A stretch of DNA of 42,457 nt. Source: an uncultured Bacteroidales bacterium (GTDB lineage Bacteria; Bacteroidota; Bacteroidia; Bacteroidales; Muribaculaceae). Each line of letters begins with the position of its first letter. Position 1 is the stretch's first letter. This document shows positions 9,148-37,411 of this stretch, piece by piece. Below the pieces are notes generated by a model that worked only from the letters and a program-made list of their open reading frames with translations, made no database searches and was not told the DNA's origin. The position numbers were made by a program, and so were the translations under genes. Location: contig CACZVR010000027.1 of NCBI GenBank assembly GCA_902784675.1, forward strand, positions 1 through 42,457. Direction: 5' to 3'.

Positions 9148-10641
9148 TTACTTGAACAGACGGCCCACAACGGGCAGTTTGGCCAACATCTGGCCCAGGT
9201 GCTCTTTGCGGTAGATGAAACCCACAAACAGCAACAGCAGGAAAGTGCGGTAGGCCAGCGCAATCCACATGTTCTCGATTGCCAGCATCATCGCAGCGAA
9301 CAGGATACCGGCCACGAAAGTGTAGAGGGCGATGTCGCGCAACTGATAGCGGATGGGATAGTACTTCTGCCCCACGAGGTAGCTCAGCACCATGGCGGTA
9401 GCATAGCCCGCAAAACCACCCCAAGCACATGCCATGTAGCCGTACTTGGGCACAAACAGCACGTTCACCAGAATGAGCACGGCACAGCCGATGCCCGAGA
9501 ACCATGCGCCCCAAATGGTCTTGTCGATGAGTTTGTACCAGAACGACAGATTAAAGTAGATGCCCATCATGATCTCGGCGGCCATGACAATGGGCACAAC
9601 CTTGAGTCCCGACCAGTAGTCCGGGGCGATGATGTACTTGAACACATCAATCCATGCCATCACAGCCAAGAAGGCCAGCAGCGTGAAGATGATGAAGTAG
9701 CGCATAGCCTGGGCATAGGTCTCGCGGCTGTCCTTCTCTTTACTTTTGCCGAACACAAACGGCTCGTAGGCATAGCGGAAGGCTTGGGTGATCAGCGCCA
9801 TGATCATGGCAATTTTCACTGCCGCTCCATAGATACCCAACTGCGTCTGCACGTCGGCTTGCTTGTAAATCTTGGGGAAGAACATCTTGTCGAACGTCTG
9901 GTTCAAGATGCCGGCGATACCCAGCACCAGGATGGGCCAGGCATATTTGAGCATGCGCTTCAACAGCGACCAGTCAAACTTGTACTTGATGCCCGTCAGC
10001 TCTTTCCAGAAGAAGAAGGTGATCAATCCGGTACAGAACAGGTTGATAAAGAAGGCATAGCCCACACCCACAGTAGGACTATAGATTTTGCCGATGGCAT
10101 CGGGATAACTCTTGTAGAGGGCGGGCAGGGCAACATAGTACAGCAGATTCAGGCCGATGTTCAAGAAAATGAACAACAACTTGAGGGCAGCGAATTTCCA
10201 CGGCTTGCGTTGGTAGCGCAGATACGCAAACGGAATGCACTGGAAGGCATCCAGGGCAACCACCGTCGCCATCACCCAGATGTACTCGGGATGAGCGCTA
10301 TAGCCCATCCACCCTGATATGCCAGGCAGGAATGCCAACACCAGCAGGACAAACAGCAACGAGGTGGTGCCCACGCTGATGAGCGTCGTGCTATAGACGG
10401 TGGCAGGGTTCTCCTCGCTCTTGTTGGCAAAGCGGAAGAACGTCGTCTCCATGCCGTAGGTGAGGATGACGAGCAGCAATGCCGTGTAGGCATACACGTT
10501 GGTGATGACGCCATAGCCGCCCGAAGCGGCCGACATCTTGGCGGTATATAGTGGCACGAGCAGATAATTCAGGAAACGCCCGATGATGCTGCTCAACCCA
10601 TAGATGGCGGTGTCTTTCGCCAGTGATTTAAGATTAGCCAT
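9148..10641 (-). CDS. Wzx-type polysaccharide flippase
   Basis: Inner-membrane protein of 497 residues with about 12-14 hydrophobic segments spread over its length, resembling the oligosaccharide flippase / polysaccharide biosynthesis (MATE-like, MOP superfamily) group. The N-terminus (LAKDTAIYGLSSIIGRFLNYLLVPLYT) is typical of this group: the first helix carries the conserved small and aromatic residues seen in Wzx-like proteins. It would flip lipid-linked glycans or a similar lipid intermediate; the substrate cannot be told. It starts 20 nt after the ruvB stop on the same strand, so the two are probably co-transcribed. The leader is the repetitive AT-rich run CTAACTTCTAACT-like, read here as TTAGTTAGAAGTTAGGAG. 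Confidence 0.85.
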   Translation of the reverse strand: MANLKSLAKDTAIYGLSSIIGRFLNYLLVPLYTAKMSAASGGYGVITNVYAYTALLLVILTYGMETTFFRFANKSEENPATVYSTTLISVGTTSLLFVLLVLAFLPGISGWMGYSAHPEYIWVMATVVALDAFQCIPFAYLRYQRKPWKFAALKLLFIFLNIGLNLLYYVALPALYKSYPDAIGKIYSPTVGVGYAFFINLFCTGLITFFFWKELTGIKYKFDWSLLKRMLKYAWPILVLGIAGILNQTFDKMFFPKIYKQADVQTQLGIYGAAVKIAMIMALITQAFRYAYEPFVFGKSKEKDSRETYAQAMRYFIIFTLLAFLAVMAWIDVFKYIIAPDYWSGLKVVPIVMAAEIMMGIYFNLSFWYKLIDKTIWGAWFSGIGCAVLILVNVLFVPKYGYMACAWGGFAGYATAMVLSYLVGQKYYPIRYQLRDIALYTFVAGILFAAMMLAIENMWIALAYRTFLLLLFVGFIYRKEHLGQMLAKLPVVGRLFK

Positions 10642-22199: not shown

Positions 22200-22243
22200 C
22201 AAGTTAGATTTTTGTTAGAGGCTTATTTGAATAAACCAATGGT
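22200..22243 (+). promoter_or_regulatory. Candidate sus regulator site upstream of amylase
   Basis: CAAGTTAGATTTT at 22200-22212 is identical to 25963-25975 upstream of susC. Each starts exactly 115 bp before the T of its -7 box. A nearby palindromic ACCAATGGT lies at 22235-22243. Binding by the SusR-like protein is inference. Confidence 0.5.
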
Positions 22244-22314
22244 TTTTAGTGGTTTGTGAGTTAATCATGTTTAGATTTTTGGTTTGAAGCGCAGCGCGAT
22301 GTGTTTTTTATATG

Positions 22315-22322
22315 TACCTTTG
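22315..22322 (+). promoter_or_regulatory. Amylase -7 box
   Basis: TACCTTTG, 34 bp before the chosen ATG at 22357. An earlier in-frame ATG at 22312 overlaps this box and cannot be the start. No good -33, as expected for an activator-dependent promoter. Confidence 0.65.
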
Positions 22323-22356
22323 TGAAAAATCAAACCGAAAAAACGTGATAACCGAA

Positions 22357-24240
22357 ATGAAACGAATTCTGACTATCTCCATTCTGATGATGGTGGCGTT
22401 GTTCTCGACGGCGGCCGTTTATGAGCCCTCGTTGACGAGCGATAGCGAGGTGTGTGTGTTCTTCGAAGCCAACAGTACCGTGACCGATACGCCCAAACTC
22501 TGGGTGTGGGCCGGTAATACCGATGGTGCTAACTATGTGGGCACCTCATGGCCTGGTGCCGCAATGACCTACATGGGTGACTCCCAAAGCGGCAACAAGA
22601 TATTCAAGTGGACCTACACGGGTTCGCTGGCAATGCCCACAGGATTGATTTTCACATGGAACAACGAGGGCGGACGTGTGGATGGCACCTTTACCAACCA
22701 TGGCTACTATGTGATGGGTCAGCTCACCAAGATCATCGGGGCAGGGGAGAGCACCTTTGTTCCCAATCAGCATGTCATCTACGAGCTTGACCTTTATAAC
22801 TTCACGAGCACGGGCAAGTTGAATGCCGCCCGCGATCGTTTGGACTACCTCAAGGACCTGGGCGTTGACATCATCTGGCTCATGCCCATTCATCCCCGTG
22901 GCATCCTGGGGCGCATCGGCTCGCTGGGCAGCCCCTATGCTCCTCGTGACTACTATGCGGTGAACAGCGACTTCGGCACGCTTGCCGACTTGCAGGCGTT
23001 TGTCGCTGCTGCCCATCAGCGCGGCATGCAGGTGTGGCTCGACTGGGTGGCTAACCACACTGCCAAGGATAACGTGTGGATCACCCAGCATCGCGACTAT
23101 TACAATTCCACTCTGATCAGCCCCAACGGCTACAACGATGTCTATCAGCTGGATTACAGCAAGGAGGCGACCCAAGTGGCGATGATCGAGGCGATGGAAT
23201 ACTGGATTGACGCAGCCGATATCGACGGTTTCCGTTGCGACTACATCAGCAGCAACACCATTCCCACTGCATTTTGGACCCGTGCCATCAAGGCTTTGAA
23301 AGAATACAAGCCTGGCAAGACCATCACCATGCTGGGCGAGGGCGACATGGCTAACAGCGTTCCACGCCTGCTCGTGTGCGGTTGGGACTATGACTATGCT
23401 TGGGGCTTCCAGTCGGGGCTGGTAAACAACAAGAATAACCCCGCTGGTGTGCTTTCACAGTGCCGCAACCTGGTGAGTGACTTGCGCTTCATTGACATCA
23501 GCCGCATGGTTTACCTCACCAACCATGACCAGAACTACAACAGTTCAATGTCGACACAGTATGGCAACAACGCCTATGCCTTCACAGTGCTCACGTTCAC
23601 CCTCTACGGCATGCCCATGCTCTACAACGGTCAGGAAACGGGTTACCTGATGAACCGCAAACTGGACTATTTCAACCGCACCCCCATCAACTGGAACACG
23701 GTCGACAGCAAGATGTTGAACACTGTCAAGGCGCTCACAGCGCTCAAGCACAGCTGTGACGCCCTCATCGACAATGGCGACCGCGCCAGCGAGGTGACCT
23801 TCCTCAACACGGGCAACAATAATCTGCTCGCTTTTACCCGCCACCACAACGACCAGACTGCGCTGGTTGTCCTCAACCTGGGTTCGAGTACGGTCAACAC
23901 CGTCGTGACGGGTCTCGAGGCAGGTGAGTGGAAACTGGCCATCGATGTGGATAACATCGCCGCCGGCTTGACCGCAACGCCGGTGAACCTGAACGCCACC
24001 CAGAGTTTCTCGTTGCCCGCCGGAGGATATAAAGTATATTACAAAGGTGAGCCTGCCAGCGACGTTTTGGTTGGCGACGTGAACCGCGATGGCGAGGTCA
24101 ACATCGGCGATGTGACGATGCTCATCAGCATCATTTTGAGCGAGAACGCCGATGCTGATTCAGTGGCCGACGTGAATTGTGACGGCGAGATCAATATCGG
24201 TGATTTGCAGGCGGTAATCAAAATCATATTGAAGAACTAA
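22357..24240 (+). CDS. Secreted GH13 alpha-amylase with starch-binding module and dockerin-like tail
   Basis: Hydrolyses alpha-1,4-glucan outside or in the envelope. 627 residues. The signal peptide (MKRILTISILMMVALFSTAA) has no lipobox. Residues about 30-130 resemble a CBM26-like starch-binding module (LWVWAGNTDGANY, FTWNNEGGRVDGTF). The GH13 barrel follows with all four conserved regions: LDWVANHT (Asp229), DGFRCDYI (nucleophile Asp295), MLGEGD (acid/base Glu328) and TNHDQN (Asp391). The C-terminus carries two dockerin-type loops, DVNRDGEVNIGD and DVNCDGEINIGD. Only 22 bp separate it from the regulator gene, so they should be co-transcribed. It plays the part SusA/SusG play in the B. thetaiotaomicron system, but with a different module set. 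Confidence 0.93.
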   Translation: MKRILTISILMMVALFSTAAVYEPSLTSDSEVCVFFEANSTVTDTPKLWVWAGNTDGANYVGTSWPGAAMTYMGDSQSGNKIFKWTYTGSLAMPTGLIFTWNNEGGRVDGTFTNHGYYVMGQLTKIIGAGESTFVPNQHVIYELDLYNFTSTGKLNAARDRLDYLKDLGVDIIWLMPIHPRGILGRIGSLGSPYAPRDYYAVNSDFGTLADLQAFVAAAHQRGMQVWLDWVANHTAKDNVWITQHRDYYNSTLISPNGYNDVYQLDYSKEATQVAMIEAMEYWIDAADIDGFRCDYISSNTIPTAFWTRAIKALKEYKPGKTITMLGEGDMANSVPRLLVCGWDYDYAWGFQSGLVNNKNNPAGVLSQCRNLVSDLRFIDISRMVYLTNHDQNYNSSMSTQYGNNAYAFTVLTFTLYGMPMLYNGQETGYLMNRKLDYFNRTPINWNTVDSKMLNTVKALTALKHSCDALIDNGDRASEVTFLNTGNNNLLAFTRHHNDQTALVVLNLGSSTVNTVVTGLEAGEWKLAIDVDNIAAGLTATPVNLNATQSFSLPAGGYKVYYKGEPASDVLVGDVNRDGEVNIGDVTMLISIILSENADADSVADVNCDGEINIGDLQAVIKIILKN

Positions 24241-24262
24241 CCGTTTTTTTCGATTTTAGGGC

Positions 24263-25912
24263 ATGAACAGAATCTTTAAAAAATGGCTGATGCTCACAGT
24301 GCTGGCGGTGATGACTGTCGCCACAGCGCTGGCGGTGCCACAGAGCGAATTCCGCCGTTTGGACAGCCTGATTGCTGTTCAAACGCAACTCATCGCCGCC
24401 AAGGAGGCACGCCTCGTCCAGATGAAGGCCGATTTGTCTGATTTGCGCACCTCCATCGAGCGCTATCAGGCGATGAGGCGACTCTATGAGGAGTATTCTG
24501 CCTACCAGTATGATTCGGCCTATGCCTATGTGAGCAACTGCATCCGCTTTGCCGATGAAATGGGCGATGTCGCACTGCAGAACGAGAGCCGCCTCAACCT
24601 GGCGCACATCTTGTCCACTGCCTGTTTGATGGAGCAGGCACGCGAAGTGTTGGGACAGATCGACACCACTCGCTTGACATCGGCCCAACTCATCCAGTTC
24701 CATCGCACCCGTGCCGACTTGCTCATCTACCAGGCCGAGTACATGCAGGGCTCACAGTTTGCCGACACTTTTGTCCAGCAACTCATTGCCCTGCGTCGCC
24801 GCATCATGACCATCGATGTGCCCCGTGACAACCTCAGCTACCAGCTCACCCAGGCCGAGTGTTATGACGACGACCGGCAGCAACAGCAGGCCATTGACTT
24901 GCTGGCCAAGTTGTTGCCCGACTACCATAGCGGTGACCGCATCTACTCGATCATCACCAGCATGATGTCGTTCTACTATTCCAAGATGGGCGACAAGGAA
25001 AACCAGATGCGCTACCTCATCAAGAGCGCCGAGAGCGATCTGGAGGGCTGCATCCGCGAGAACACGTCCTTGAGGACGATTGCCGACCGCTTGTTCGACG
25101 AGGGCGATATCGACCGCGCCTACCGTTACATGAGACTGGCGGTGGACGATGCCAACTTCTACGGGACGCGCCTTCGCAACATCCAGTCATCACGCATCGT
25201 CCCCAAGATTCTGGAAGCCTACCAGACCAAGCAGGACCGCAACCGCCGCAACATGATGTGGTTGCTGGGCATCATCTCGGTCATCGCCTTGATGCTCGTG
25301 TGTGGCGTCATCGCCATCTACCAGCTGCTCAAGCGCTATCGTCGCCTGAATGAGCAGAAGAAGGCCATCAACGAACAGCTTCGCCAGGTCAATGCCCAGT
25401 TGGGCGACACCGTCGGACGCTTGAACGAGAGCAACAGCCTGTTGCAGGAGCGCGAGAAACTCAAGGAGGAGTACATCGCCCGTTTCCTTGCCTTGTCAAG
25501 CCGATTCATCGATCGTGGCGAGGAGCAGCGCAAGGCTTTGTACCGCCTGCATCGCGACCGCAAGACCGAGGAACTGGCGCGTGAGCTCAAGAGTACGCAC
25601 TTCGGCAACGAGAATGCGCAGCTTTTCTACGAGAATTTCGATAACGCCTTCCTCAACATCTACCCCAACTTTGTGGATGAGGTGAACAAACTCCTGCACG
25701 AAGACGGCAAGATAGAGGTCAAGCAGGGCAAACGACTCACCACCGAGTCACGTGTGCTGGCGCTCATCCGCATCGGCATCACCGACAACCAGAGCATCGC
25801 CAACATCCTGCGTGCCAGCCTCACCACCATCTACACCTACCGCTCCAAGCTCAAGGCACGCGCCCTGAACAAGGACGAATTTGAATCTCAGGTCAAATCC
25901 ATCGATTATTGA
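24263..25912 (+). CDS. SusR-like membrane-spanning transcriptional regulator
   Basis: 549 residues. A signal/anchor segment (about 7-25) is followed by a helical periplasmic region with TPR-like repeats (YDSAYAYVSNCIRFADEMGD, QQQAIDLLAKLL), a transmembrane helix MWLLGIISVIALMLVCGVIAIY near residue 335, a coiled coil rich in N, Q and E, and a cytoplasmic domain ending in a LuxR-type helix-turn-helix (LTTESRVLALIRIGITDNQSIA, then TTIYTYRSKLKARA). This fits the DUF6377-type regulators and the architecture reported for SusR. It probably senses maltooligosaccharide in the periplasm and activates the locus. The call as SusR rests on layout and position, not on a database match. Confidence 0.75.
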   Translation: MNRIFKKWLMLTVLAVMTVATALAVPQSEFRRLDSLIAVQTQLIAAKEARLVQMKADLSDLRTSIERYQAMRRLYEEYSAYQYDSAYAYVSNCIRFADEMGDVALQNESRLNLAHILSTACLMEQAREVLGQIDTTRLTSAQLIQFHRTRADLLIYQAEYMQGSQFADTFVQQLIALRRRIMTIDVPRDNLSYQLTQAECYDDDRQQQQAIDLLAKLLPDYHSGDRIYSIITSMMSFYYSKMGDKENQMRYLIKSAESDLEGCIRENTSLRTIADRLFDEGDIDRAYRYMRLAVDDANFYGTRLRNIQSSRIVPKILEAYQTKQDRNRRNMMWLLGIISVIALMLVCGVIAIYQLLKRYRRLNEQKKAINEQLRQVNAQLGDTVGRLNESNSLLQEREKLKEEYIARFLALSSRFIDRGEEQRKALYRLHRDRKTEELARELKSTHFGNENAQLFYENFDNAFLNIYPNFVDEVNKLLHEDGKIEVKQGKRLTTESRVLALIRIGITDNQSIANILRASLTTIYTYRSKLKARALNKDEFESQVKSIDY

Positions 25913-25962
25913 CCCGGTTGGCGCCTTTGTCGGCTCATTTGGGCCCCGTTTCAGTTTTATAT

Positions 25963-26021
25963 CAAGTTAGATTTTACTGCACTGGTTTTCAGCTTTACTG
26001 TCTGATTACCAGTGCATTGGT
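25963..26021 (+). promoter_or_regulatory. Candidate regulator sites upstream of susC
   Basis: CAAGTTAGATTTT (25963-25975), shared with the amylase promoter at the same 115-bp offset, is followed by a perfect inverted repeat TGCACTGGT (25978-25986) / ACCAGTGCA (26008-26016), arm centres 30 bp apart. The right arm is part of a near-palindrome ACCAGTGCATTGGT (26008-26021). Position well upstream of the -7 box suits an activator. Confidence 0.5.
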
Positions 26022-26077
26022 TTTTGTTCAAATTTTGATTTGTGTTTGATGCTATTTTCTGGGCGGTTATTGCATGT

Positions 26078-26085
26078 TAATTTTG
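26078..26085 (+). promoter_or_regulatory. susC -7 box
   Basis: TAATTTTG followed by C, about 85 bp before the susC ATG. No TTG at the -33 distance. The remaining leader has no other clear element. Confidence 0.5.
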
Positions 26086-26169: not shown

Positions 26170-29127
26170 ATGAAGAAATGTAGAACAGGATTGCTGCAAC
26201 GCACGCTCATGTTGTGCGCTGCGCTGATGTTTGCCCTGGGCATTTCGGCACAGACCATGACCGTCACCGGACACATCGTGGATGAGAACGGCGAGGACTT
26301 GATCGGTGCCAGTGTTGCTGTCAAGGGCACTACGAACGGTAGCGTTACCGATTTTGATGGAAGATTCACCATCGAGAACGCTCCCAGTAACGGAACCCTG
26401 GTGATCTCTTACATTGGTTTTGAGACCCAGGAAGTGGCAATAAACGGCCAGAGTCATCACGAGATCACCCTCAACGAGGAGCGTTCGCAGCTCAACGAGG
26501 TTGTGGTCGTGGGTTACGGCTCGTTGGCCAAGAAGGAAATCTCTAGCTCGGTTGTGCAAATCGACAAGAAGCAGTTCAACCAGGGTGTTGCCAGCGACCC
26601 CCTCGCCCTCGTGGCAGGCAAGGTGGCTGGTCTGAATGTCAGCACTGCTGCTGCCGCCAACCCCAACTCGATGACTGACTTCCAGATTCGTGGTGCCGGC
26701 TCACTCACCGCCTCCAATGGCCCGCTCATCGTCATCGACGGCATCGCCGGTGGTGACCTGCGCAACATCGCCACTCAGGACGTGGAGAGCATCACAGTGC
26801 TCAAGGATGCCGGTTCGGCCGCCATCTATGGTACGCGTGGTGCCAATGGTGTCATCCTCGTGACTACCAAGAAGGGCGCTGGCGCTCCTGGCGTGACCAC
26901 GGTGACCTATGATAGCTACATCGCTGCCAACTTCGCCAAGCCCAAGCCCCGCATCCTCACGACCGAGGAGTTCCGCCGTTCACGCCGCGGCCAGGACTAT
27001 GGCGGCGACACCAACTGGTGGGATGAGATCACACGCCCCATGAGCTACAACCTCAACCAGTACCTCTCGATCGACAGCTCCACCAAGAACGGCTACTTCG
27101 GAGCCTCGGTGAACTACAAGCGTGGCAATGGTCTCGACATCGTGTCGGGCCGCGAGGAGTATGGCGCACGTTTCGTGGGCGAACAGCGTGTGCTGGACAA
27201 TTTCTTGCAGTTCAACGCTTCGCTCTCGGGACGCAAGGTGCACGAGAAATGGGGCAACGACGGTCTGTTCGACACCGCGTTGACCATGAACCCCACCATC
27301 CCCGTGTTCAACGAGGACGGCACCTACTATCAGCCCAACAGCCCCACCGACATTCACAACCCGGTGAACGACTTGAAGAACAACGTGAGCAACGGTGACC
27401 GCATCTATCTGCTGGGTAACGGTGACGTGAAGGTCAACCTCATCCAGAACGATCATCACTACTTGAACACCTCATTGAGCTATGCGTTGCAATACAACGA
27501 CTTGAAATCCAACTTCTACACTCCCAGCACCTCGAGCGAGAGCTACTGGAACGGCTATGCAGGTCGTGCCAACATCAACTACCAGAAGTGGTGGACCAAC
27601 CGCTTGGAATGGCTGGGCAACTACACGCTCACCCTCGATGACCATCAACTCAAGGCCGTTGTGGGCTACTCATGGGAGCGCACCCGCTGGGAGCAGAGTG
27701 GCAACGAGAACATGGGCTTCGTGTATGACAGCATGAACTACCATGGCATCGGCAACGGTATCTATCTGCGCGACGGTAAGGCCAACATGTGGGCTGGCTC
27801 CTCCGAGTCTACCCTCATCGGTTTTTTCGGCCGTTTGAACTATAACTACAGGGATATGCTGTTCGCCTCGGCGTCGATGCGCCGCGAGGGCAGCACCAAG
27901 TTCGGTGCCAACAAGAAGTGGGGTAACTTCCCCTCGGTGTCACTGGCTTGGGAAATCACCCGCACTCCGTTTGCCGAGGGTCTCTCGAACACCTTCCAGA
28001 GCTTGAAGCCCCGCATCTCCTACGGTGTGACTGGCCGCAGCGATTTCAATGCCTATCAGTCGCTCTCGACCTATAGCGGCTATGGTGCCTACTATATCGA
28101 TGGCGAGTGGGTTAACGGTTATGCCCCCTCGGTGAACGCCAACCCCGACCTGGCATGGGAGAAGTCAACCGCCTTTAACGTGGGTGTGGACTTCGTCGCA
28201 TTTGCCAGCCGTCTGCGTGGTAGCGTCGAGTACTATGACCGCCGTTCGCAAGATCTGCTTTACAACTACACCGCTCCGCAACCCCCGTTCATCTACAACT
28301 CGATTCTCGTGAACGTGGGTACTACCAAGAACACCGGTGTCGAGGTCGTGCTCGACTACGACGTACTGACCAACACCGCTGTCAAGTGGACCACCGGCAT
28401 CAACTGGAGCACCGGCAAGACCAAGCTCACCAAGCTTTCGAGCGATGTTTACCAGATGAGCTATCTGGACCTCTACCGCAAGCCCGGTGTGGGTACCAGC
28501 GAGTACTTCTTCCGCGTGGCCGAGGGCGGCCTCATCGGCCAGTACTACGGCTTTGAGCACGCCGGCCTCGACGAGAACGGCCTGTTCATGGTCTATGACA
28601 ACGACGGCAACGCTGTTCCCGCTGCTCAGGCCGATCCCGCCTGGAAGCGCAACATCGGCAATGGCGCTCCCAAGCACTTCCTCTCATGGACCAACACCTT
28701 CACTTGGAACAACTGGGACTTGAGCATGCTCATGCGTGGTGCCTTTGGTTACAAGATCTTCAACATGCGTCGCTATGGCATGGGTCTCAAGGGCTGCGGC
28801 ACCGACAACGTGCTGGCCAGTGCCTATACCGACTATGCCGACGTCAATGCTGGCGGTAGCATCATCTCGAGCTACTTCCTCGAGAAGGGCGACCATTTCA
28901 AGCTCGACAACGTCACCCTGGGCTACACCTTCATGCCCAAGAAGCGCAACCTGCTCGAGAGCATGCGCGTCTATCTGTCGGCCAAGAACCTGTTCACCCT
29001 CACGGGCTACAAGGGCAACGATCCCTCGATCGTTACCTCGACCGGCATCACTCCCGGTATTGACTCCAACAGCGCCTATCCCCAGGCCTTCCAGTTCACA
29101 CTGGGTGTAACCGTGCGTTTCCACTAA
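26170..29127 (+). CDS. susC: SusC-family TonB-dependent outer-membrane transporter
   Basis: Imports oligosaccharides across the outer membrane with TonB energy and works under its SusD lid. 985 residues. Signal peptide MKKCRTGLLQRTLMLCAALMFALGISAQ is followed by the carboxypeptidase-regulatory-like domain (VTGHIVDENGEDLIGASVAVKGT), a TonB-box-like LNEVVVVGYG, the SusC-signature plug (DIKNIATQD-like DLRNIATQDVESITVLKDAGSA then IYGTRGANGVILVTTKKG) and a large beta-barrel ending in FQFTLGVTVRFH. An in-frame TTG two codons upstream exists, but the ATG at 26170 is preferred. susD follows after 22 bp. Starch or maltooligosaccharide as substrate is inferred from the surrounding genes. Confidence 0.96.
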   Translation: MKKCRTGLLQRTLMLCAALMFALGISAQTMTVTGHIVDENGEDLIGASVAVKGTTNGSVTDFDGRFTIENAPSNGTLVISYIGFETQEVAINGQSHHEITLNEERSQLNEVVVVGYGSLAKKEISSSVVQIDKKQFNQGVASDPLALVAGKVAGLNVSTAAAANPNSMTDFQIRGAGSLTASNGPLIVIDGIAGGDLRNIATQDVESITVLKDAGSAAIYGTRGANGVILVTTKKGAGAPGVTTVTYDSYIAANFAKPKPRILTTEEFRRSRRGQDYGGDTNWWDEITRPMSYNLNQYLSIDSSTKNGYFGASVNYKRGNGLDIVSGREEYGARFVGEQRVLDNFLQFNASLSGRKVHEKWGNDGLFDTALTMNPTIPVFNEDGTYYQPNSPTDIHNPVNDLKNNVSNGDRIYLLGNGDVKVNLIQNDHHYLNTSLSYALQYNDLKSNFYTPSTSSESYWNGYAGRANINYQKWWTNRLEWLGNYTLTLDDHQLKAVVGYSWERTRWEQSGNENMGFVYDSMNYHGIGNGIYLRDGKANMWAGSSESTLIGFFGRLNYNYRDMLFASASMRREGSTKFGANKKWGNFPSVSLAWEITRTPFAEGLSNTFQSLKPRISYGVTGRSDFNAYQSLSTYSGYGAYYIDGEWVNGYAPSVNANPDLAWEKSTAFNVGVDFVAFASRLRGSVEYYDRRSQDLLYNYTAPQPPFIYNSILVNVGTTKNTGVEVVLDYDVLTNTAVKWTTGINWSTGKTKLTKLSSDVYQMSYLDLYRKPGVGTSEYFFRVAEGGLIGQYYGFEHAGLDENGLFMVYDNDGNAVPAAQADPAWKRNIGNGAPKHFLSWTNTFTWNNWDLSMLMRGAFGYKIFNMRRYGMGLKGCGTDNVLASAYTDYADVNAGGSIISSYFLEKGDHFKLDNVTLGYTFMPKKRNLLESMRVYLSAKNLFTLTGYKGNDPSIVTSTGITPGIDSNSAYPQAFQFTLGVTVRFH

Positions 29128-29149: not shown

Positions 29150-30973
29150 ATGAAAAAGTATATTTATATCATCATAGCGATTGCAGTGAGCGTGATGGGT
29201 CTGTCCTCTTGCACTGACCTTGACGAGAAGGTGAACGACCGAATCGATGCCACTGTCTATTATCAGAACGAAGCCAGTGTCAAGGGTGCCGTTGCCGCTA
29301 TCTACAACCAGACGTCATCGACCCTTGCCGGCGAGAACTTCTTCCACTTGAGCGAGTATCCCGCCGACCAGCTCACCTGGCGCGTGTGGAACGGTGGCCA
29401 GTGGGGCTGGGACGAGGCCATGAAGACGGTGCTCTCTTGGCACAACTGGAACAGTGAGTCCACCATCATCCAAAATGCCTGGTCGGGCGCTTGGACCGCC
29501 GTGGGCCTGGCCAATCTGCTGCTCAACGACTTGGAGGCGCTGAATGCCGACGACTTGGGCATGACACAGGAGAAACTCAACCAGTATGTCGCCGAGGTGC
29601 GCACCATCCGCGCATGGAACTACTACTGCCTGTTCGAATTGTGGGGCGGCGCGCTGCCCTTGAACGTGAAGGCTGGCAGCGAGGTGCCCGGCACCGCCGA
29701 TCCCGACTGGGACACCTCGTGCAAGAAGATTTTTGACTTCATCGCTCAGGAACTTGACGAGACCGTGGACCAGCTCGCTGCCGAGGATGGCACCCGCGCC
29801 ACCGTCAACCGTGCCAACAAGGCGATGAACCGTCTGCTCAAGGCCCGCCTGCTGCTCAATGCCGAGGTCTTCATCGGTGAAGCCCGCTATGACGAGTGCG
29901 AGGCCCTCTCCAAGCAGATCATCAACGGTGACTTTGGCCGCTACGCCCTGGCCGACAATTACCGTGACATCTACAGCATCGACAATGTGAAGTGCCCCGA
30001 GGTAATCTTCGCGCTTGCTGCCGAGGACGGACAGGGTGCCGCCAATGCCATCAGCAACGTGCGCACCATGGTGGGCATGTGGTATGGCTATGCCGACTAT
30101 TTCGGACAGTCCTATGACGGCATCGGTGCTTGGAACTGCGTTTGCCTGGTGCCCAGCTATGACAACGCCGGCACCGTGCTGCCCACCGGTGGCAGCGAGG
30201 GCGCTAACTGCTTCCTGGATGCCCCCTACAACGACAAGCTGGGAGCCCCCTACGAGCGCTTTGACGATCGCGACATCCGCAAGCAGAACTATGTGTATAA
30301 TGTGACGACCAAGACCCATGGTCCCGGTATGTTCCTCAAGGGCGTGATGCGTGCCAACTTTGGCACGGGCGACGTGCTCAAGGCCGATGCCGACCGCGAC
30401 GGCCAGGATCTGGTCTATGTGGATCAGGTGGGCACCTTCTTGAATCAGGGCCGCACCCTCGAGACCGTGATGAGTCCGCGTTGGGGCGAGACCAACTCGG
30501 GTGTTCGTCTGGTGAAATATCCCTTGTATCCCACCGATGATGCCGGCGGCTTCAAGTCGATCGACGACGTGCAGTTCCGTCTGGCCGAGGCCTACTACAA
30601 CGTGGCCGAGTGCGAGATGCGCAAGGGCAACAGTGGCGAGGCCAAGAACTATGTGGACGCTGTTCGTCAGCGTTATTTCACCGCTGCCAACCGTGCTTCG
30701 GCACTCGCAGTGGCTGGTCCTGGCTTCACAGCCTTTGACATGGACTGGATGCTCAGCGAGTGGGGTAAGGAATACTTGGGCGAGGGCAACCGTCGCCGCA
30801 CCGACCTGCGCCGTTTCAACAAGTTCACGCAGGGCACCTGGTGGTTCTGGGGCCGTGCTACCGAGCCCGGCATCGACCTGCCCGCACAGCGCAGCACCAA
30901 GTATGAGTGGTACCCGCTGCCGCAGTCCGCTCTGTCGGTTAACCCTGGTTTGATCCAGAATCCCAATTATTAA
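29150..30973 (+). CDS. susD: SusD/RagB-family starch-binding lipoprotein
   Basis: Surface glycan-binding lid for SusC. 607 residues. The signal peptide ends in LSSC with lipidated Cys21. The SusD fold is shown by VRTIRAWNYYCLFELWGGALPL (TPR helix with the conserved RAxxYYxL pattern), RATVNRANKAMNRLLKARLLLNAEV, YYNVAECEMRKGNSGEAKNYVDAVRQRY, and the C-terminal GEGNRRRTDLRRFNKF and YPLPQSALSVNPGLIQNPNY signatures. It lies in operon between susC and the binding-protein gene, spaced 22 and 27 bp. The exact glycan cannot be read from sequence, but tryptophan-rich segments and the neighbouring amylase and GH97 point to starch. Confidence 0.96.
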   Translation: MKKYIYIIIAIAVSVMGLSSCTDLDEKVNDRIDATVYYQNEASVKGAVAAIYNQTSSTLAGENFFHLSEYPADQLTWRVWNGGQWGWDEAMKTVLSWHNWNSESTIIQNAWSGAWTAVGLANLLLNDLEALNADDLGMTQEKLNQYVAEVRTIRAWNYYCLFELWGGALPLNVKAGSEVPGTADPDWDTSCKKIFDFIAQELDETVDQLAAEDGTRATVNRANKAMNRLLKARLLLNAEVFIGEARYDECEALSKQIINGDFGRYALADNYRDIYSIDNVKCPEVIFALAAEDGQGAANAISNVRTMVGMWYGYADYFGQSYDGIGAWNCVCLVPSYDNAGTVLPTGGSEGANCFLDAPYNDKLGAPYERFDDRDIRKQNYVYNVTTKTHGPGMFLKGVMRANFGTGDVLKADADRDGQDLVYVDQVGTFLNQGRTLETVMSPRWGETNSGVRLVKYPLYPTDDAGGFKSIDDVQFRLAEAYYNVAECEMRKGNSGEAKNYVDAVRQRYFTAANRASALAVAGPGFTAFDMDWMLSEWGKEYLGEGNRRRTDLRRFNKFTQGTWWFWGRATEPGIDLPAQRSTKYEWYPLPQSALSVNPGLIQNPNY

Positions 30974-31000: not shown

Positions 31001-32410
31001 ATGAAAACAAGAAATATATACAGTCTGATGGTGGTGCTGCTGGCGGCCTTGAGCGTGATGACCAGCTGCTCCAAGGATGAGGATATCATCTTTGACCACG
31101 AGCGTCAGCAGTTCGAGACGCGTGCCGACCGCATCCTGCTTGAGTTCATCGCTCCCTTCGGCACCTCGGTCGATGAGGAAATCTACATCATGGGTGCCTT
31201 TAACGGCGACAGCGCCTCGATGGGCAAGGAAGAGTGGAAGCTCATGAAGGCTCCTGGCAGCGACATCAAGTGGGGCATCTATCTCGATCCCGCGACCTTT
31301 GTTAACGGCAAGACCCTTGCCGACGGATTCCGTTTCTACAGTGCCACCCAGGGCACCGAGTTCACCGTCAAGGGTGAGATGGCCAACCACACCGATAACC
31401 CCGGCCTGGGCACCTTCACCAACGTGTGGGGTGAGCGCTGGGAGAGCTATTACTGGAGTGGCGACGGCCCCGAGATTGAGCATGACGGCTATGTGGTCTA
31501 TGTGCTCGACGAGACGGGCTGGGCTAACCTCTACCTCTACATGTGGGGTGATGTGAACGACCTGAACGGTGGCTGGCCCGGCATGGCCCCGACAGGCAAG
31601 CAGAAGATTGGCGGTACCGAGTACACCTACTTCGACATGGGCGCTGCCAACGAGAAGTTGAACGAGAACCTCATCTTCAACAACGGAGAGGGCACACAGC
31701 TGGCCGACTTCGCTTACACCATCGACCATGATGTCTATCTGCGTGTCACCACCAGCGGTGTCGAGGAGATGAGCGAGCCGGTTACCGTGGAGCACGACGG
31801 TTATGCGCTGTTCGTACTCAATGAGTCGAGCCAGACCGACCTTGCCCTCTATGCTTGGGGTGACGCTGAAGCATTCGGTGGATGGCCGGGAATGCTTCCC
31901 ACGGGCACACAGACCATCAACGGACTGGAGTACACCTACTTCGATTTGGGTGAGACTAACACTGGTCTCAATCTCCACCTGATTCCGAACAACAATAACA
32001 ATGGGGTGCAATGGGAAGGAGACGACCTGTTCTTCACCATCGACCACGACATCTACGTCCGCATCTTCGACGGTGGCTACGAAGTCATCAGCAAGGACTA
32101 TCAGGGCGGTGATTCCACGCCTAGCGAGACGCACTACATCTTCATCGAGGACAAGACCGGTTGGGACGCCATCACCCTGTATGCCTGGGGTGACAAGGAA
32201 TTCTTCGGCGGTTGGCCCGGAGTAGCGCCCACGGGCACTTCGACGGTCGACGGCTTGACCTACACCTACTGGGAGTTCACCAGCGCCGGCGAGTCCGAGC
32301 ACCTCATCTTCAACAACAATGGCGGTGGCGAACAGGCTCCCGACTTTGACGTGGTGCTGAACAAGGACTACTACCTCATTGTCACGGCCGACGGCGTTAC
32401 ACTCAAGTAA
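31001..32410 (+). CDS. SusE/SusF-like outer-membrane starch-binding lipoprotein with three repeat modules
   Basis: 469 residues. Lipobox MTSC (Cys23) anchors it in the outer membrane. An N-terminal SusE-like domain spans about 35-155 (FIAPFGTSVDEEIYIMGAFN). Three homologous binding modules follow at about 160-260, 264-365 and 375-469, each with the core aromatic pattern LYxWGD...GGWPGMxPTG and YTYFD/YTYWEF. Repeated W and Y residues on one face are typical of starch-binding modules (CBM26-like). It would hold starch at the surface for SusD and the amylase. It is the last gene of the susC operon, ended by the terminator at 32482-32515. It appears to replace the separate SusE and SusF of B. thetaiotaomicron. 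Confidence 0.9.
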   Translation: MKTRNIYSLMVVLLAALSVMTSCSKDEDIIFDHERQQFETRADRILLEFIAPFGTSVDEEIYIMGAFNGDSASMGKEEWKLMKAPGSDIKWGIYLDPATFVNGKTLADGFRFYSATQGTEFTVKGEMANHTDNPGLGTFTNVWGERWESYYWSGDGPEIEHDGYVVYVLDETGWANLYLYMWGDVNDLNGGWPGMAPTGKQKIGGTEYTYFDMGAANEKLNENLIFNNGEGTQLADFAYTIDHDVYLRVTTSGVEEMSEPVTVEHDGYALFVLNESSQTDLALYAWGDAEAFGGWPGMLPTGTQTINGLEYTYFDLGETNTGLNLHLIPNNNNNGVQWEGDDLFFTIDHDIYVRIFDGGYEVISKDYQGGDSTPSETHYIFIEDKTGWDAITLYAWGDKEFFGGWPGVAPTGTSTVDGLTYTYWEFTSAGESEHLIFNNNGGGEQAPDFDVVLNKDYYLIVTADGVTLK

Positions 32411-32620: not shown

Positions 32621-34534
32621 ATGAAGAGATTATTGTTTTTTGCCTTGATGTGCCTCATGGTGAGCACGATAGCGTTTGCCAAGGATGTGAAGCTCACATC
32701 GCCCGACGGGTCCTTGACTGTGACCGTCGGCGTGAACGGCGGCAAGGCGTGGTATCAGGTCAACCGTGGCAGTGAGATCGTCATCGGCCGCTCGGCATTG
32801 GGCTTTGTGCTCAAGGACGGCGACTTCAAGGACAACTTCAAGCAGGGCAAGGTGACCCGTGCGAGCCTCGACGAGACGTGGAGTCAGCCTTGGGGCGAGG
32901 ACGCCCAGGTGCGCAACCGTTACAACGAGCTGCGGGTGCGTCTGCAGGAGCGCAGCGGTGCCAAGCGTGTGCTGGACGTGGTGTTCCGCGCCTTCGACGA
33001 CGGTGTGGCTTTCCGCTATGAGTTCCCCGAGCAGCCCAGCCTCAAGCAGTTCGTCATCATGGACGAGGTGACGCAGTTCGCTCTGCCCACCGACGCCCAG
33101 GCATGGTCAATTCCCGCCTTGACAGCCTACTACGAGGGCATCTACACCCGCGAGCCGCTCAGCCAGAAAGGCAAGATGTCGGGTCCTGTAGCCCTCGAGG
33201 TGAACGACTCGCTGTTCATGGCCATCATGGACGCTAACCTCACCGACTATTCCACGATGAATTTCGCCCCCAGCGGCACCACGCTCACCGTTGACCTGGT
33301 GCCCTGGCAGAACGGCGACAAGGTGCGCATGGAGAACATCCGTGTCACCCCGTGGCGCGCCGTCATCATCGGTCGCACCGCTGCCGACATCCTGCTCTCG
33401 CGCATGGCGCTGAACCTGAACGAGCCGTGCAAGATTGCCGACACTTCGTGGCTCAAGCCCAGCAAGTATGTGGGCATCTGGTGGGCGTTGCAAAAACAGC
33501 AGTGGACCTGGTCGCAGGGTGACCGCCATGGCGCCACCACGGCCAACACCAAGCGTTACATCGACTTCGCTGCCCGTCACGGACTGGGCGGTGTGCTGGT
33601 CGAGGGCTGGAACTACGGCTGGGACACCGACTGGACCAAGCACGGTGACGGCTTCTCGTTCACCAAGGCCTATCCCGACTATGACCTCGAGGGCCTGTGC
33701 CGCTATGCCGCCGAGCGCGGTGTGCGCATCATCGCCCACAACGAGACTGGTGGCGCTGCTCAGAACTACGAGAACCAGCTCGAGGATGCCTTCACGCTCT
33801 ATGAGTCGCTGGGCATCAACACCGTCAAGACGGGCTATGTCAACTCCCACTTCTATAACGGTGAGTTGCAGCATTCACAGTGGGGCATACGCCACTTCCG
33901 CAAGGTCATCGAGACGGCGGCCCGCCACCACCTGATGATCGTCAACCACGAGGGCGCCATGCCCAGTGGCATCCAGCGCACGTGGCCCAACCTCATCGCC
34001 ACCGAGAGCATGCGCGGCCAGGAGTACAACGCCTTTGACCGCAGGGGTGGCAACCCGCCCTATCACGAGTGCATCCTGCCGTTCACGCGCGGCCTGGGCG
34101 GTCCCATGGACTTCACCCCCGGCATCTTCGAGTACCGCAACGATGCGGTGCCCGGCACGCATCCGCAGAACACCCACGAGCATCAGCCCGCCTTCAAGTT
34201 CATCGAGGACGTGCCCACCAACTGGGAGCGCACCCTCGTGCCCCACGCCGCAATGGGCAAGTATGTGACCTATGCACGCCAGGAGCGCGGCACCGACAAC
34301 TGGTATGTCGGCAGCGTGACCGACGGTCAGGCACGCGATCTGGAACTGTCGCTCGACTTCCTCGCCGACGGTGTCCGCTACACGGCCATCATCTATGAGG
34401 ACGGCCCCGACGCCGACTATCGCGACAATCCCTATCCCATGACCATCCGTCGCCTCGACGTGGACCGCAGCACCGTGTTGCACCTCCACCTCGCCCCCGG
34501 CGGTGGCGCCGCCATCCAACTCCTCGCCCCCTAA
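32621..34534 (+). CDS. susB: GH97 alpha-glucosidase (SusB-like)
   Basis: Releases glucose from the non-reducing end of maltooligosaccharides in the periplasm. 637 residues against about 738 for SusB of B. thetaiotaomicron. Signal peptide MKRLLFFALMCLMVSTIAFA has no lipobox. GH97 landmarks are the N-terminal beta-sandwich (LTSPDGSLTVTVGV), KYVGIWWAL, LVEGWNYGWDTDW and the C-terminal PFTRGLGGPMDFTPGIFE. Glutamates at 375 (HNETGG), 444 (NHEGA) and 468 (ESMRGQE) have the same spacing, 69 and 24, as the catalytic E439, E508 and E532 of SusB, pointing to the inverting subgroup. It has its own promoter and follows the sus terminator. Confidence 0.93.
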   Translation: MKRLLFFALMCLMVSTIAFAKDVKLTSPDGSLTVTVGVNGGKAWYQVNRGSEIVIGRSALGFVLKDGDFKDNFKQGKVTRASLDETWSQPWGEDAQVRNRYNELRVRLQERSGAKRVLDVVFRAFDDGVAFRYEFPEQPSLKQFVIMDEVTQFALPTDAQAWSIPALTAYYEGIYTREPLSQKGKMSGPVALEVNDSLFMAIMDANLTDYSTMNFAPSGTTLTVDLVPWQNGDKVRMENIRVTPWRAVIIGRTAADILLSRMALNLNEPCKIADTSWLKPSKYVGIWWALQKQQWTWSQGDRHGATTANTKRYIDFAARHGLGGVLVEGWNYGWDTDWTKHGDGFSFTKAYPDYDLEGLCRYAAERGVRIIAHNETGGAAQNYENQLEDAFTLYESLGINTVKTGYVNSHFYNGELQHSQWGIRHFRKVIETAARHHLMIVNHEGAMPSGIQRTWPNLIATESMRGQEYNAFDRRGGNPPYHECILPFTRGLGGPMDFTPGIFEYRNDAVPGTHPQNTHEHQPAFKFIEDVPTNWERTLVPHAAMGKYVTYARQERGTDNWYVGSVTDGQARDLELSLDFLADGVRYTAIIYEDGPDADYRDNPYPMTIRRLDVDRSTVLHLHLAPGGGAAIQLLAP

Positions 34535-35473: not shown

Positions 35474-37411
35474 TCAGGGCGTGAGGGGCATGATGCTGGC
35501 GGCCTTGACGGTGAAGAAGTTGTCGCTGTTGGACTTCAGGAGGTTGTACTCGCTGTGGTTGCTCCATGGAGCGGGTTTGTCCTCGATGGCGGTGTCCTCG
35601 CCGGTGTCGTTGTTGACATAGGGGGCGATGCGGTTGTGCCAGGCACGGATGCGCGCCTGGGCGGCCTTGCGGTCCATCATGGCGTTGCCCTGGGTGACGA
35701 GGAACTTGAGGTGGTTGATGTAGATGGCCTTGAAGTCGCCGAACTTGAGGATGCGGGCGATGAGGCGGTTGCCGTCGTTGCCCCAGTAGAGCGGATTCTG
35801 GCGTCCTGCATCGTCCTGGTTGCCGCAACGCAGACTGGTGCCCAGCGTGTTGTCGTAGTCGTAGGGAATGAAGAAGAACTGGTAGTCGTGCAGGTGCTTG
35901 CTGTTGAAGTAGAGGTAGTAGTTGTTGGCGTTGTTCCAGTAGTCGTCCCACATGCCCACGGCGACGTTGACGGCATAGGTCTTGAGCAGCAGGTCCACAT
36001 CGGTGGCCCGCTGAATCCAGGTGCGGAAATCGGCGTCGTTGAGGTTGTTGATCTTGTTCATGAGGTCGCGCAGCTGCACACGGGCGCTGTCAAACTCCTC
36101 GGTCTGCGTCTCGAGGGTGTAGGCGTGGCGGTCGTCGGTGTCGTCGTCATACCAGATGTCGCCGTTGGGGTTGTTGAGGCCTGCGGCGCCGTTGCGGCAT
36201 TTCCACAGGTAGCCGTTGCTGCTGCCGAACTGGTCTTTGCGGTCCTTGACGTAGCGCTTGTCGATGGGCTCAAGCAGCTCGTACACACCGTAGTAGGCCT
36301 CGTGGCTGTCGCCCTCGACGTGCAGCCACAGACGGCAGTATTGGTCGCGGGGAGCGGTCCACACGCCTGCACGGCGGAAGAGCTCGAAGCAGAACAGCTC
36401 GCGCACACAGGCGGGGTCGTCCTTGAACCACTTGAGGTGCAGCTTGCGCACGCCCTGGATGGTGTGGGCGTCGTCGTCGACATATTTGCGCAGGTTGACG
36501 CCGAAGTGGGCGTGGTGCCAGTCGGTGTTGTCGCGGTGGTGCATCTCGCCGTACCAGCCCTCGGGGCGGCGGCGCGAGGTGTTGCCCTTGATGCGGATGC
36601 CCACGCTGTCGATGACGGTGGTCTCGCCGTCGCGCACAAAGGAGAGGCTGCCCATGACGTACTGGGTGGTGTAGGCGTTGGCGTCATAGAGCTGCAGCAG
36701 GCGGTTCCACTCACTGAGGCTCACGTCGATGTGGACCTCGGGGATGACGTTGTTGTCCCACACATAGTCGTAGCCCTCGCGCACCGGCTCGTGCACCTCG
36801 CCGCCCAGCAGGATGTCGATGATGCCGTTGATGTCGGCGATGTTGAGCTCGCCGTCATAGTTGACGTCGCTGCGCTGCCTCACGTCGTAGTTGGCGAAGC
36901 CGCCCAGCAGGATGTTGATGAGGCCGTTGATGTCGGCGATGTTGATCTCGCCGTCGCCGTTCACGTCACCCACGCTGAGGCTGAACGGGTCGGGCTCGGG
37001 TGTCTCGACATAAGCCTCAATCTTGAAGGTGAGGTTGTTGAGGTCGAAGGTGATGATGAAGTCTTGATCGCCAGTGCCATTGAACTTGTAGGCATGGTTG
37101 TTGTTGGCCTTCTGCGTCGTGTAGGTCACGTTGGTTTGTACCTCCTGGCTGCCGTTGCCGTTGGGCCCGTAGCGGTGGTTGGCATTGAAGTCGGTCCAGT
37201 CGCTGGTGAGCTTGTCGGCAAAGACGAACCACACCGTCTCGTGGATGCCGATTGTGAGGGAGTATGTGCCGTTGCCCTGGTCGGTCATCTCGATGCCGTG
37301 AGCGGGGTCCCAGTTGCCGAAGGGGCCGCTGCCGACGATATAGATGGCAGCCTGTGCCGGCATTGTCGCCAGCACAAGCGCCATGATGGTCATGAGGAGA
37401 TACTTCTTCAT
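35474..37411 (-). CDS. Secreted CotH-kinase-family protein with internal dockerin-like pair
   Basis: 645 residues. Signal peptide MKKYLLMTIMALVLATMPAQA. An N-terminal domain (about 22-135) resembles the starch-binding domains of SusE/F (IYIVGSGPFGNWDP, GNGTYSLTI). Residues about 146-206 hold two dockerin-type loops, DVNGDGEINIAD and DVNYDGELNIAD, here internal instead of C-terminal. The rest resembles CotH kinase proteins: GIRIKGNTSRRRPE, KLHLKWFKDDPACVRELFCFELFRRAG, YGVYELLEPIDKRYVKDR, YYLYFNSKHLHDYQFFFIPYDYDNTLG. CotH phosphorylates spore-coat proteins in Bacillus; the target of secreted Bacteroidales forms is unknown. It is downstream of the gamma-carbonic-anhydrase-like gene on the same strand. 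Confidence 0.87.
   Translation of the reverse strand: MKKYLLMTIMALVLATMPAQAAIYIVGSGPFGNWDPAHGIEMTDQGNGTYSLTIGIHETVWFVFADKLTSDWTDFNANHRYGPNGNGSQEVQTNVTYTTQKANNNHAYKFNGTGDQDFIITFDLNNLTFKIEAYVETPEPDPFSLSVGDVNGDGEINIADINGLINILLGGFANYDVRQRSDVNYDGELNIADINGIIDILLGGEVHEPVREGYDYVWDNNVIPEVHIDVSLSEWNRLLQLYDANAYTTQYVMGSLSFVRDGETTVIDSVGIRIKGNTSRRRPEGWYGEMHHRDNTDWHHAHFGVNLRKYVDDDAHTIQGVRKLHLKWFKDDPACVRELFCFELFRRAGVWTAPRDQYCRLWLHVEGDSHEAYYGVYELLEPIDKRYVKDRKDQFGSSNGYLWKCRNGAAGLNNPNGDIWYDDDTDDRHAYTLETQTEEFDSARVQLRDLMNKINNLNDADFRTWIQRATDVDLLLKTYAVNVAVGMWDDYWNNANNYYLYFNSKHLHDYQFFFIPYDYDNTLGTSLRCGNQDDAGRQNPLYWGNDGNRLIARILKFGDFKAIYINHLKFLVTQGNAMMDRKAAQARIRAWHNRIAPYVNNDTGEDTAIEDKPAPWSNHSEYNLLKSNSDNFFTVKAASIMPLTP

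Follow-up and report, generated by a model that had tools for sequence, protein, structure and literature searches.

Two promoters of a starch-utilisation (sus) locus in an uncultured Bacteroidales bacterium of the Muribaculaceae carry the same 13-bp sequence, CAAGTTAGATTTT, which raises the question of what this element is and which protein reads it. The locus lies on contig CACZVR010000027.1 of assembly GCA_902784675.1, analysed here over its full 42,457 nucleotides (the window). The answer favoured here, with some reserve, is that the 13-mer is the distal half of a three-part operator, likely bound by the SusR-like regulator encoded at 24263, with a central palindrome on which a predicted bending protein of the HU/IHF type (IHF, integration host factor) would fold two half-sites together.

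Exact copies of the 13-mer are found on the plus strand at 22200-22212, in the promoter termed here P1, and at 25963-25975, in the promoter P2. As a first-pass annotation of the locus had pointed out, each lies 115 bp upstream of a TAnnTTTG (-7) box, starting at 22315 (TACCTTTG) in P1 and at 26078 (TAATTTTG) in P2, and neither promoter has a good -33 element. In both, TTTG is missing at 19-21 bp from the -7 box, its canonical distance. The 13-mer is not scattered through the genome: the organism's own 2.7-Mb assembly (~86% complete) holds just these two exact copies, while 0.047 are expected under a second-order Markov model. Two further places match with one mismatch (900 bases of each were read by eye); that on contig C16 resembles coding sequence, and that on C51 has a gene downstream, but in the opposite orientation.

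When each promoter was compared with itself, a second half-site was found 67 bp 3' of the distal one in both, at 22271 and 26034, and a central palindrome lies between the half-sites of each (22232-22256 and 25995-26019). The annotation had therefore picked out a real site but an incomplete one, merely the distal half of a tandem operator, and its statement that the two upstream regions are otherwise unlike does not hold. In both promoters the palindrome centre is 36 bp past the centre of the distal core and 31 bp ahead of that of the proximal core, and the -7 box starts 40 bp beyond the proximal core centre. Outside the three elements and the -7 box P1 and P2 show scant likeness. The parts are:

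22200-22212, plus strand: P1 distal SusR-type half-site, with core TTAGATTTT at 22204-22212
22232-22256, no strand: P1 central palindrome TAAACCAATGGTTTTTAGTGGTTTG (degenerate), a predicted bending-protein site matching the IHF consensus at 7/9 positions per strand
22271-22279, plus strand: P1 proximal half-site core TTAGATTTT, 67 bp after the distal core
22315-22322, plus strand: P1 -7 box TACCTTTG, without TTTG at the usual -33 spacing
25963-25975, plus strand: P2 distal SusR-type half-site, with core at 25967-25975
25995-26019, no strand: P2 central palindrome TTACTGTCTGATTACCAGTGCATTG, a predicted bending-protein site matching the IHF consensus at 8/9 positions per strand
26034-26042, plus strand: P2 proximal half-site core TTTGATTTG, 67 bp after the distal core
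26078-26085, plus strand: P2 -7 box TAATTTTG

Comparison of promoters in relatives bore the site out. The set of orthologues comprised 34 same-genus loci (L039-L072, 72-79% identity) and the window, which is included in the counts that follow; a 35th relative, G018, was left out, its regulator being split over contig ends. P1 is present in 33 of the 35 loci and P2 in 16. The loci without P1 are L044 and L051, in the latter of which the upstream stretch is missing from the sequence. P2 occurs in 15 of the 16 loci with susC after the regulator and in none of the 17 with GH97 in that position; L043 has susC downstream yet no P2, and L041 and L049 end before the gene after the regulator can be named, although L041 has a P2-like site. 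Gene order after susR thus varies among these related species (L039-L072), with either susC and its own operator or GH97 and no operator. TTTG at 19-21 bp from the -7 box is found in 0/33 copies of P1 and 3/16 of P2.

In 101 genomes of the genus, a strict pattern (half-site, N59, half-site, N34-38, TAnnTTTG) matched at 75 sites and its reversal at none. Of the 73 genomes that have a SusR-like match (at E 0.001 or better), 48 hold such sites, and the 28 without one hold none (Fisher 1.3e-10, a value overstated, like the other Fisher value below, the species being related). Downstream genes were read for 31 sites, namely 30 of the 75 with loci and a third site of the window's own genome on contig C39: 12 encode GH13 enzymes, one a SusC, 17 a protein with a short match (91-106 aa, 25-52%) to the CBM26-bearing protein of the window, and one an unknown exported protein. 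The C39 site precedes a 1297-aa protein whose match to that protein covers 94 aa at 52%, and for which DUF4886 is the sole Pfam listing.

The spacer between the half-sites is itself conserved. In 55 distinct sites, gathered with a pattern blind to the spacer, the columns TAA-N4-CTG-N5-CAG-N4-TTR are strongly conserved (T38 in 98%, A46 in 91% and T53 in 100% of sites, counting the A of AGTTAGATTTT as 0). The palindrome half reads W-W-T-C-A-R-N4-T-T-R, resembling the IHF consensus (WATCAR-N4-TTR), and its two A-R steps are 9 bp apart. For IHF, this consensus is given as WATCARNNNNTTR and the DNA is described as kinked at two points 9 bp apart (PMC8421141), with a bend of ~160 degrees over ~35 bp (PMC8421141, PMC9519438); the site is also given as WATCAANNNNTTR (PMC5963220). 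Enterobacterial IHF sites have a half of this form, whereas here both halves resemble it, as a homodimer would read. The palindrome, with its A-R steps 9 bp apart, would thus fit a homodimeric protein of the HU/IHF type. Three HU/IHF-family (PF00216) matches are present in the genome. Two lie side by side at 11.7-12.3 kb of contig C3 (G000:C3; L190, L191), one of them within a protein of 432 aa whose N-terminal domain is HU-like and which also has a hydrophobic stretch. A 94-aa HU protein is encoded on contig C5 (G000:C5). A literature search for BHFa, a Bacteroides host factor, found nothing.

Beyond the genus, operators of two spacings recur. When 20 order-level and 6 paralogue loci were scanned with an anchor near -46 relative to the -7 box, the spacings of 67 and 77 bp each had 16 register matches, and no other spacing had more than 4. 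A larger out-of-genus set comprised 98 loci: 80 named GTDB loci and 18 of the 20 order-level loci, two duplicates having been dropped. The named loci are the best 80 of at least 590; Bacteroides, Phocaeicola, Dysgonomonas, Pedobacter and Sphingobacterium are among them, B. thetaiotaomicron is not named among those best 80, and four are Muribaculaceae of unknown genus, none of which contributes to the 26 half-site pairs at 67 or 77 bp. In 96 of the 98 loci 364 promoter-like boxes were found, and self-matching half-site pairs peak at 67 (16 pairs) and 77 bp (10 pairs). Of these 26 pairs, 17 have the palindrome where the distal half-site predicts it, compared with 7 of the 81 at 34 other spacings (Fisher 2.3e-8); among the latter, 74 bp has 10 pairs, none with the palindrome, and 65 bp has seven, one with it. 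In selected operators the best palindrome centre falls at -70 or -71 from the box in 8/8 with 66/67-bp spacing and at -81 in 6/6 with 77-bp spacing, while two of the 16 selected, L183 (65 bp) and L173 (76 bp), do not fit. The distance of 36 bp between palindrome and distal half-site is therefore the same in both classes: in the 77-bp class the two shift together, so that the added helical turn falls on the promoter side, between the palindrome and the proximal site. In the group of 38-49% identity just 10 of 20 loci have an operator, and a search of the 20 order-level loci for the GATTTT type found three.

Several types of half-site were found: TTWGATTTT, a type like CTACTTTT, and CTTATATTT in B. 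finegoldii and relatives. In the loci read, a YTYR recognition helix pairs with TTWGATTTT half-sites and YNYR with the other types, with one exception. The window regulator has T525 at this position, which goes with the GATTTT type, and the paralogue on contig C70 of the same genome has CCACTTTT, of the CTACTTTT-like type, beside it. The operator beside this DUF6377 paralogue (G000:C70, L073; minus-strand box at 9393 of the locus) has CCACTTTTT repeated at 77 bp, with the palindrome. The exception is the C39 paralogue, which has N in its recognition helix yet lies ~2 kb from a GATTTT operator; that operator is taken, rather than proven, to be a target of the 24263 regulator. In L186 and L268 the helix has T, but a convincing operator was not found. 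On this pattern (L073-L098, L169-L188), the choice between T and N at this helix position may be a one-residue specificity code of SusR-like proteins; the scan for named loci used the pattern TIYNYR, and therefore its loci cannot test the rule. The palindrome is alike beside all half-site types.

The palindrome is also common elsewhere. In a 440-kb sample of the genome it has 17 intergenic matches in 42.9 kb, while 24 other spacings average 2.9. Across 60 genomes of the order it occurs at 176 places, compared to 34 for an equally palindromic reversed pattern (36 genomes above, 10 below), and in the 49 of these without a listed SusR-like match the figures are 135 and 24 places (30 genomes above, 8 below). 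Because it is enriched away from SusR and is alike beside different half-site types, its binder is most likely a common protein and not SusR, and the palindrome is possibly a general promoter element of the Bacteroidales, one not found described in the literature searched. Among 20 loci of the genome that were read (L129-L148; contigs C1, C40, C111 and others), seven have a palindrome centre 69-92 bp before the -7 box. The genes behind such palindromes, judged by eye, include rpsL, ribonucleotide reductases and glycogen synthase.

The two operators of the window stand before the following genes:

22357-24240, plus strand: GH13 alpha-amylase, with a dockerin type I match and a CBM26-like match below cut-off
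24263-25912, plus strand: SusR-like regulator, 549 aa, DUF6377
26170-29127, plus strand: SusC-like TonB-dependent transporter, from ATG 26170
29150-30973, plus strand: SusD-like protein
31001-32410, plus strand: SusE/F-like protein (by position), with two CBM26 stretches
32621-34534, plus strand: GH97 (SusB-like) glucosidase

P1 precedes the GH13 gene and then the regulator, and P2 precedes susC, susD and the genes for the CBM26 protein and GH97. The mechanically called GH13 reading frame starts at 22312, which would place the -7 box within the gene; ATG 22357 is followed by a signal-peptide-like stretch, as read by eye. The regulator gene starts 22 bp past the GH13 stop and is therefore likely to belong to the GH13 operon. 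Dockerin type I domains are found on the GH13 amylase (22312-24240) and on a CotH-kinase protein (35474-37411).

The 24263 protein scores 265.9 bits against Pfam DUF6377 (PF19904; cut-off 36.7), above the gathering score, and two further DUF6377 proteins of the genome are also above cut-off. Its named close homologues are proteins of Muribaculaceae metagenome-assembled genomes (P0015, P0021). A structure model built from close homologues alone had a poor C-terminus, which a deeper alignment improved. The predicted structure has a TPR solenoid at residues ~41-329, on which the listed Foldseek and VIA-align matches fall, a helix at 303-379 containing a hydrophobic stretch that reads by eye as a membrane-spanning helix, and helices at 494-533 in the position of the helix-turn-helix (HTH). 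By prediction this layout fits a periplasmic sensor, a membrane helix and a C-terminal HTH. Profile and structure comparison resolved no family for the HTH, GerE being below cut-off at 0.0017; HTH_29 matches 18 of the 21 members of the regulator family. LuxR-type chains were considered as relatives of the HTH, but at E 0.07-1 they were not taken as evidence.

The half-sites, their exact spacing, the positions of the palindrome and -7 box and their conservation can be read in the DNA directly; from them we infer a bending-protein site that would fold the two SusR half-sites together. In the proposed mechanism, a maltooligosaccharide would reach the periplasmic sensor and a membrane-anchored SusR dimer would then bind both half-sites. 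A sharp bend would be centred on the palindrome, with the SusR dimer bridging the half-sites across it, and the bridged SusR would contact or recruit RNA polymerase at a promoter mostly lacking a -33 element. With their starts 27 to 32 bp from the centre of the palindrome, the half-site cores would be outside a 35-bp wrapped segment, and so the U-turn would place them on adjacent arms, at 36 and 31 (or 41) bp. The 77-bp class, in which distal half-site and palindrome behave as one unit and the added turn is promoter-side, would suit such a phase-locked folded complex. Since the susR gene lies behind the P1 operator, positive feedback on susR is predicted, and the same switch would also turn on susC, susD and the genes for the CBM26 protein and GH97. 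The activator site, its link to the 24263 regulator and the autoregulation, all suggested by the first-pass annotation, gain support from this comparison of sequences. Neither kind of counter-evidence that the annotation had named, many 13-mers away from glycan loci or a lack of conservation in related sus loci, was seen.

Whether the scheme extends further is, in our judgement, evenly balanced. SusR-type activators throughout the Bacteroidota could be folded nucleoprotein switches, in which a homodimeric HU/IHF-type protein sits on the palindrome, with the distal half-site 36 bp away and the proximal one 31 or 41 bp away, and a U-turn sets the direct half-sites side by side for the membrane-anchored dimer, the same palindrome serving as a general element of promoter architecture in the order, also far from glycan genes. 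A fixed palindrome, acting through bend and bridge, would provide a concrete, testable answer to how a membrane protein reaches both sites, as well as a ready definition of the SusR operator for genome annotation.

Other explanations share some of this evidence. The half-sites may form a SusR-type operator while an ordinary global transcription factor of the Bacteroidota occupies the palindrome, adding a second input such as carbon status. A widespread palindrome, its intergenic enrichment and its place 69-92 bp before the -7 box in seven of 20 loci would all suit such a factor, but the palindrome resembles the IHF consensus in form, down to the N4 gap, and has a rigid place inside the operator, so that this is considered unlikely, if a serious contender. 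The motif of the Crp-like regulator Cur/BT4338, wwwTATGTTnTAnAACATAwww, was tried as the identity of the palindrome and rejected, as its sequence differs. The near-invariant spacing among the three elements could instead mean that SusR binds them all, with one dimer on the palindrome and neighbouring subunits on the half-sites. This seems highly improbable: the palindrome is constant where half-site and recognition helix differ, and its enrichment extends to the 49 genomes that have no listed SusR-like match (135 places, against 24).

Two doubts concern the half-sites themselves. The element might be bound by another regulator of the genome, which also encodes two more DUF6377 proteins, one of them ~2 kb from a GATTTT operator. 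However, no sites occur in the 28 genomes of the genus without a SusR-like match, half-site type tracks the recognition helix (T525 with GATTTT, N with the CTACTTTT type) save for one exception, and the C70 paralogue has the other type beside it; there is very little room left for this explanation. That just two exact 13-mers exist in the genome might suggest coincidence or the recent duplication of one promoter. Both were rejected, with next to no probability remaining, as they are contradicted by conservation: the same offset is found in 33 of 35 orthologous loci, the reversed pattern has no matches, and the promoters have little likeness outside the three elements and the -7 box.

The interpretation of the 13-mer as part of a SusR operator folded by a bending protein has points against it as well. 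The P1 palindrome is weak, at 7/9 per half, and P2 reaches 8/9, while shuffled spacers reach at least 7/9 somewhere on either strand in 77% of trials; because shuffles match so often, single IHF-like sites prove nothing, and just the fixed place and the two-fold symmetry count. In the same 440-kb sample the palindrome is also frequent in coding sequence, with 35 matches; the 24 other spacings average 13.6 and reach 40 at most. Of the 135 places in genomes without a SusR-like match, 53 are in three genomes, one of which has a repeated element, and some copies are hairpin-like. Outside the genus, nine of the 26 pairs at 67 or 77 bp have no palindrome above threshold, most of the 364 boxes have no such half-site pair, and when the half-site threshold was tightened in the 80 named loci, 67 and 77 bp led by little (67 bp, 6; 77 bp, 4; against 3 each at 74 and 79 bp). 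The relatedness of the species, which inflates both Fisher values, belongs here too. Finally, the 24263 protein matches the NCBIfam SusR equivalog NF058541 over profile positions 3-515 of 515 (E 1.5e-134) at 450 bits, short of the curated cut-off of 480, and for this reason it is termed SusR-like and not a SusR equivalog.

How does this operator compare with known systems? Among the papers searched, none joins SusR with integration host factor, and two have SusR together with a direct repeat, PMC3878776 and a starch review. For SusR-like regulators of Bacteroides, a direct repeat has been predicted with 67 or 77 bp between site centres and a non-conserved spacer (Ravcheev et al. 2013, PMC3878776), placed before operons adjoining SusR-like genes, for starch and other glycans (PMC3878776). 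Both window promoters likewise have a 67-bp direct repeat before glycan-utilisation genes, and because the second half-site sits 67 bp on, the window operator is a member of this predicted kind. The palindrome in the spacer seems undescribed: in the available text of PMC3878776 the spacer is long and non-conserved and no third element figures, whereas near-invariant palindrome columns are found here across 55 sites. That study covered 11 Bacteroides genomes, while the operator described here is from another genus and has the regulator gene behind it, and the two were compared by description. Cur/BT4338 sites are also palindromes in Bacteroides sugar-utilisation promoters, but of another sequence.

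The SusR of B. thetaiotaomicron and B. ovatus responds to maltose in the periplasm by increasing sus transcription (PMC11633381, PMC3878776). SusR transcript levels are reported to be similar across conditions in both species (PMC11633381), and regulators of the SusR-like kind are described as typically constitutive (PMC6874557). The present locus shares with these two species a starch locus and a regulator of the SusR family. Unlike theirs, its susR lies within an operator-bearing operon, with autoinduction predicted, and such positive feedback on susR would distinguish this clade of gut bacteria from the Bacteroides model.

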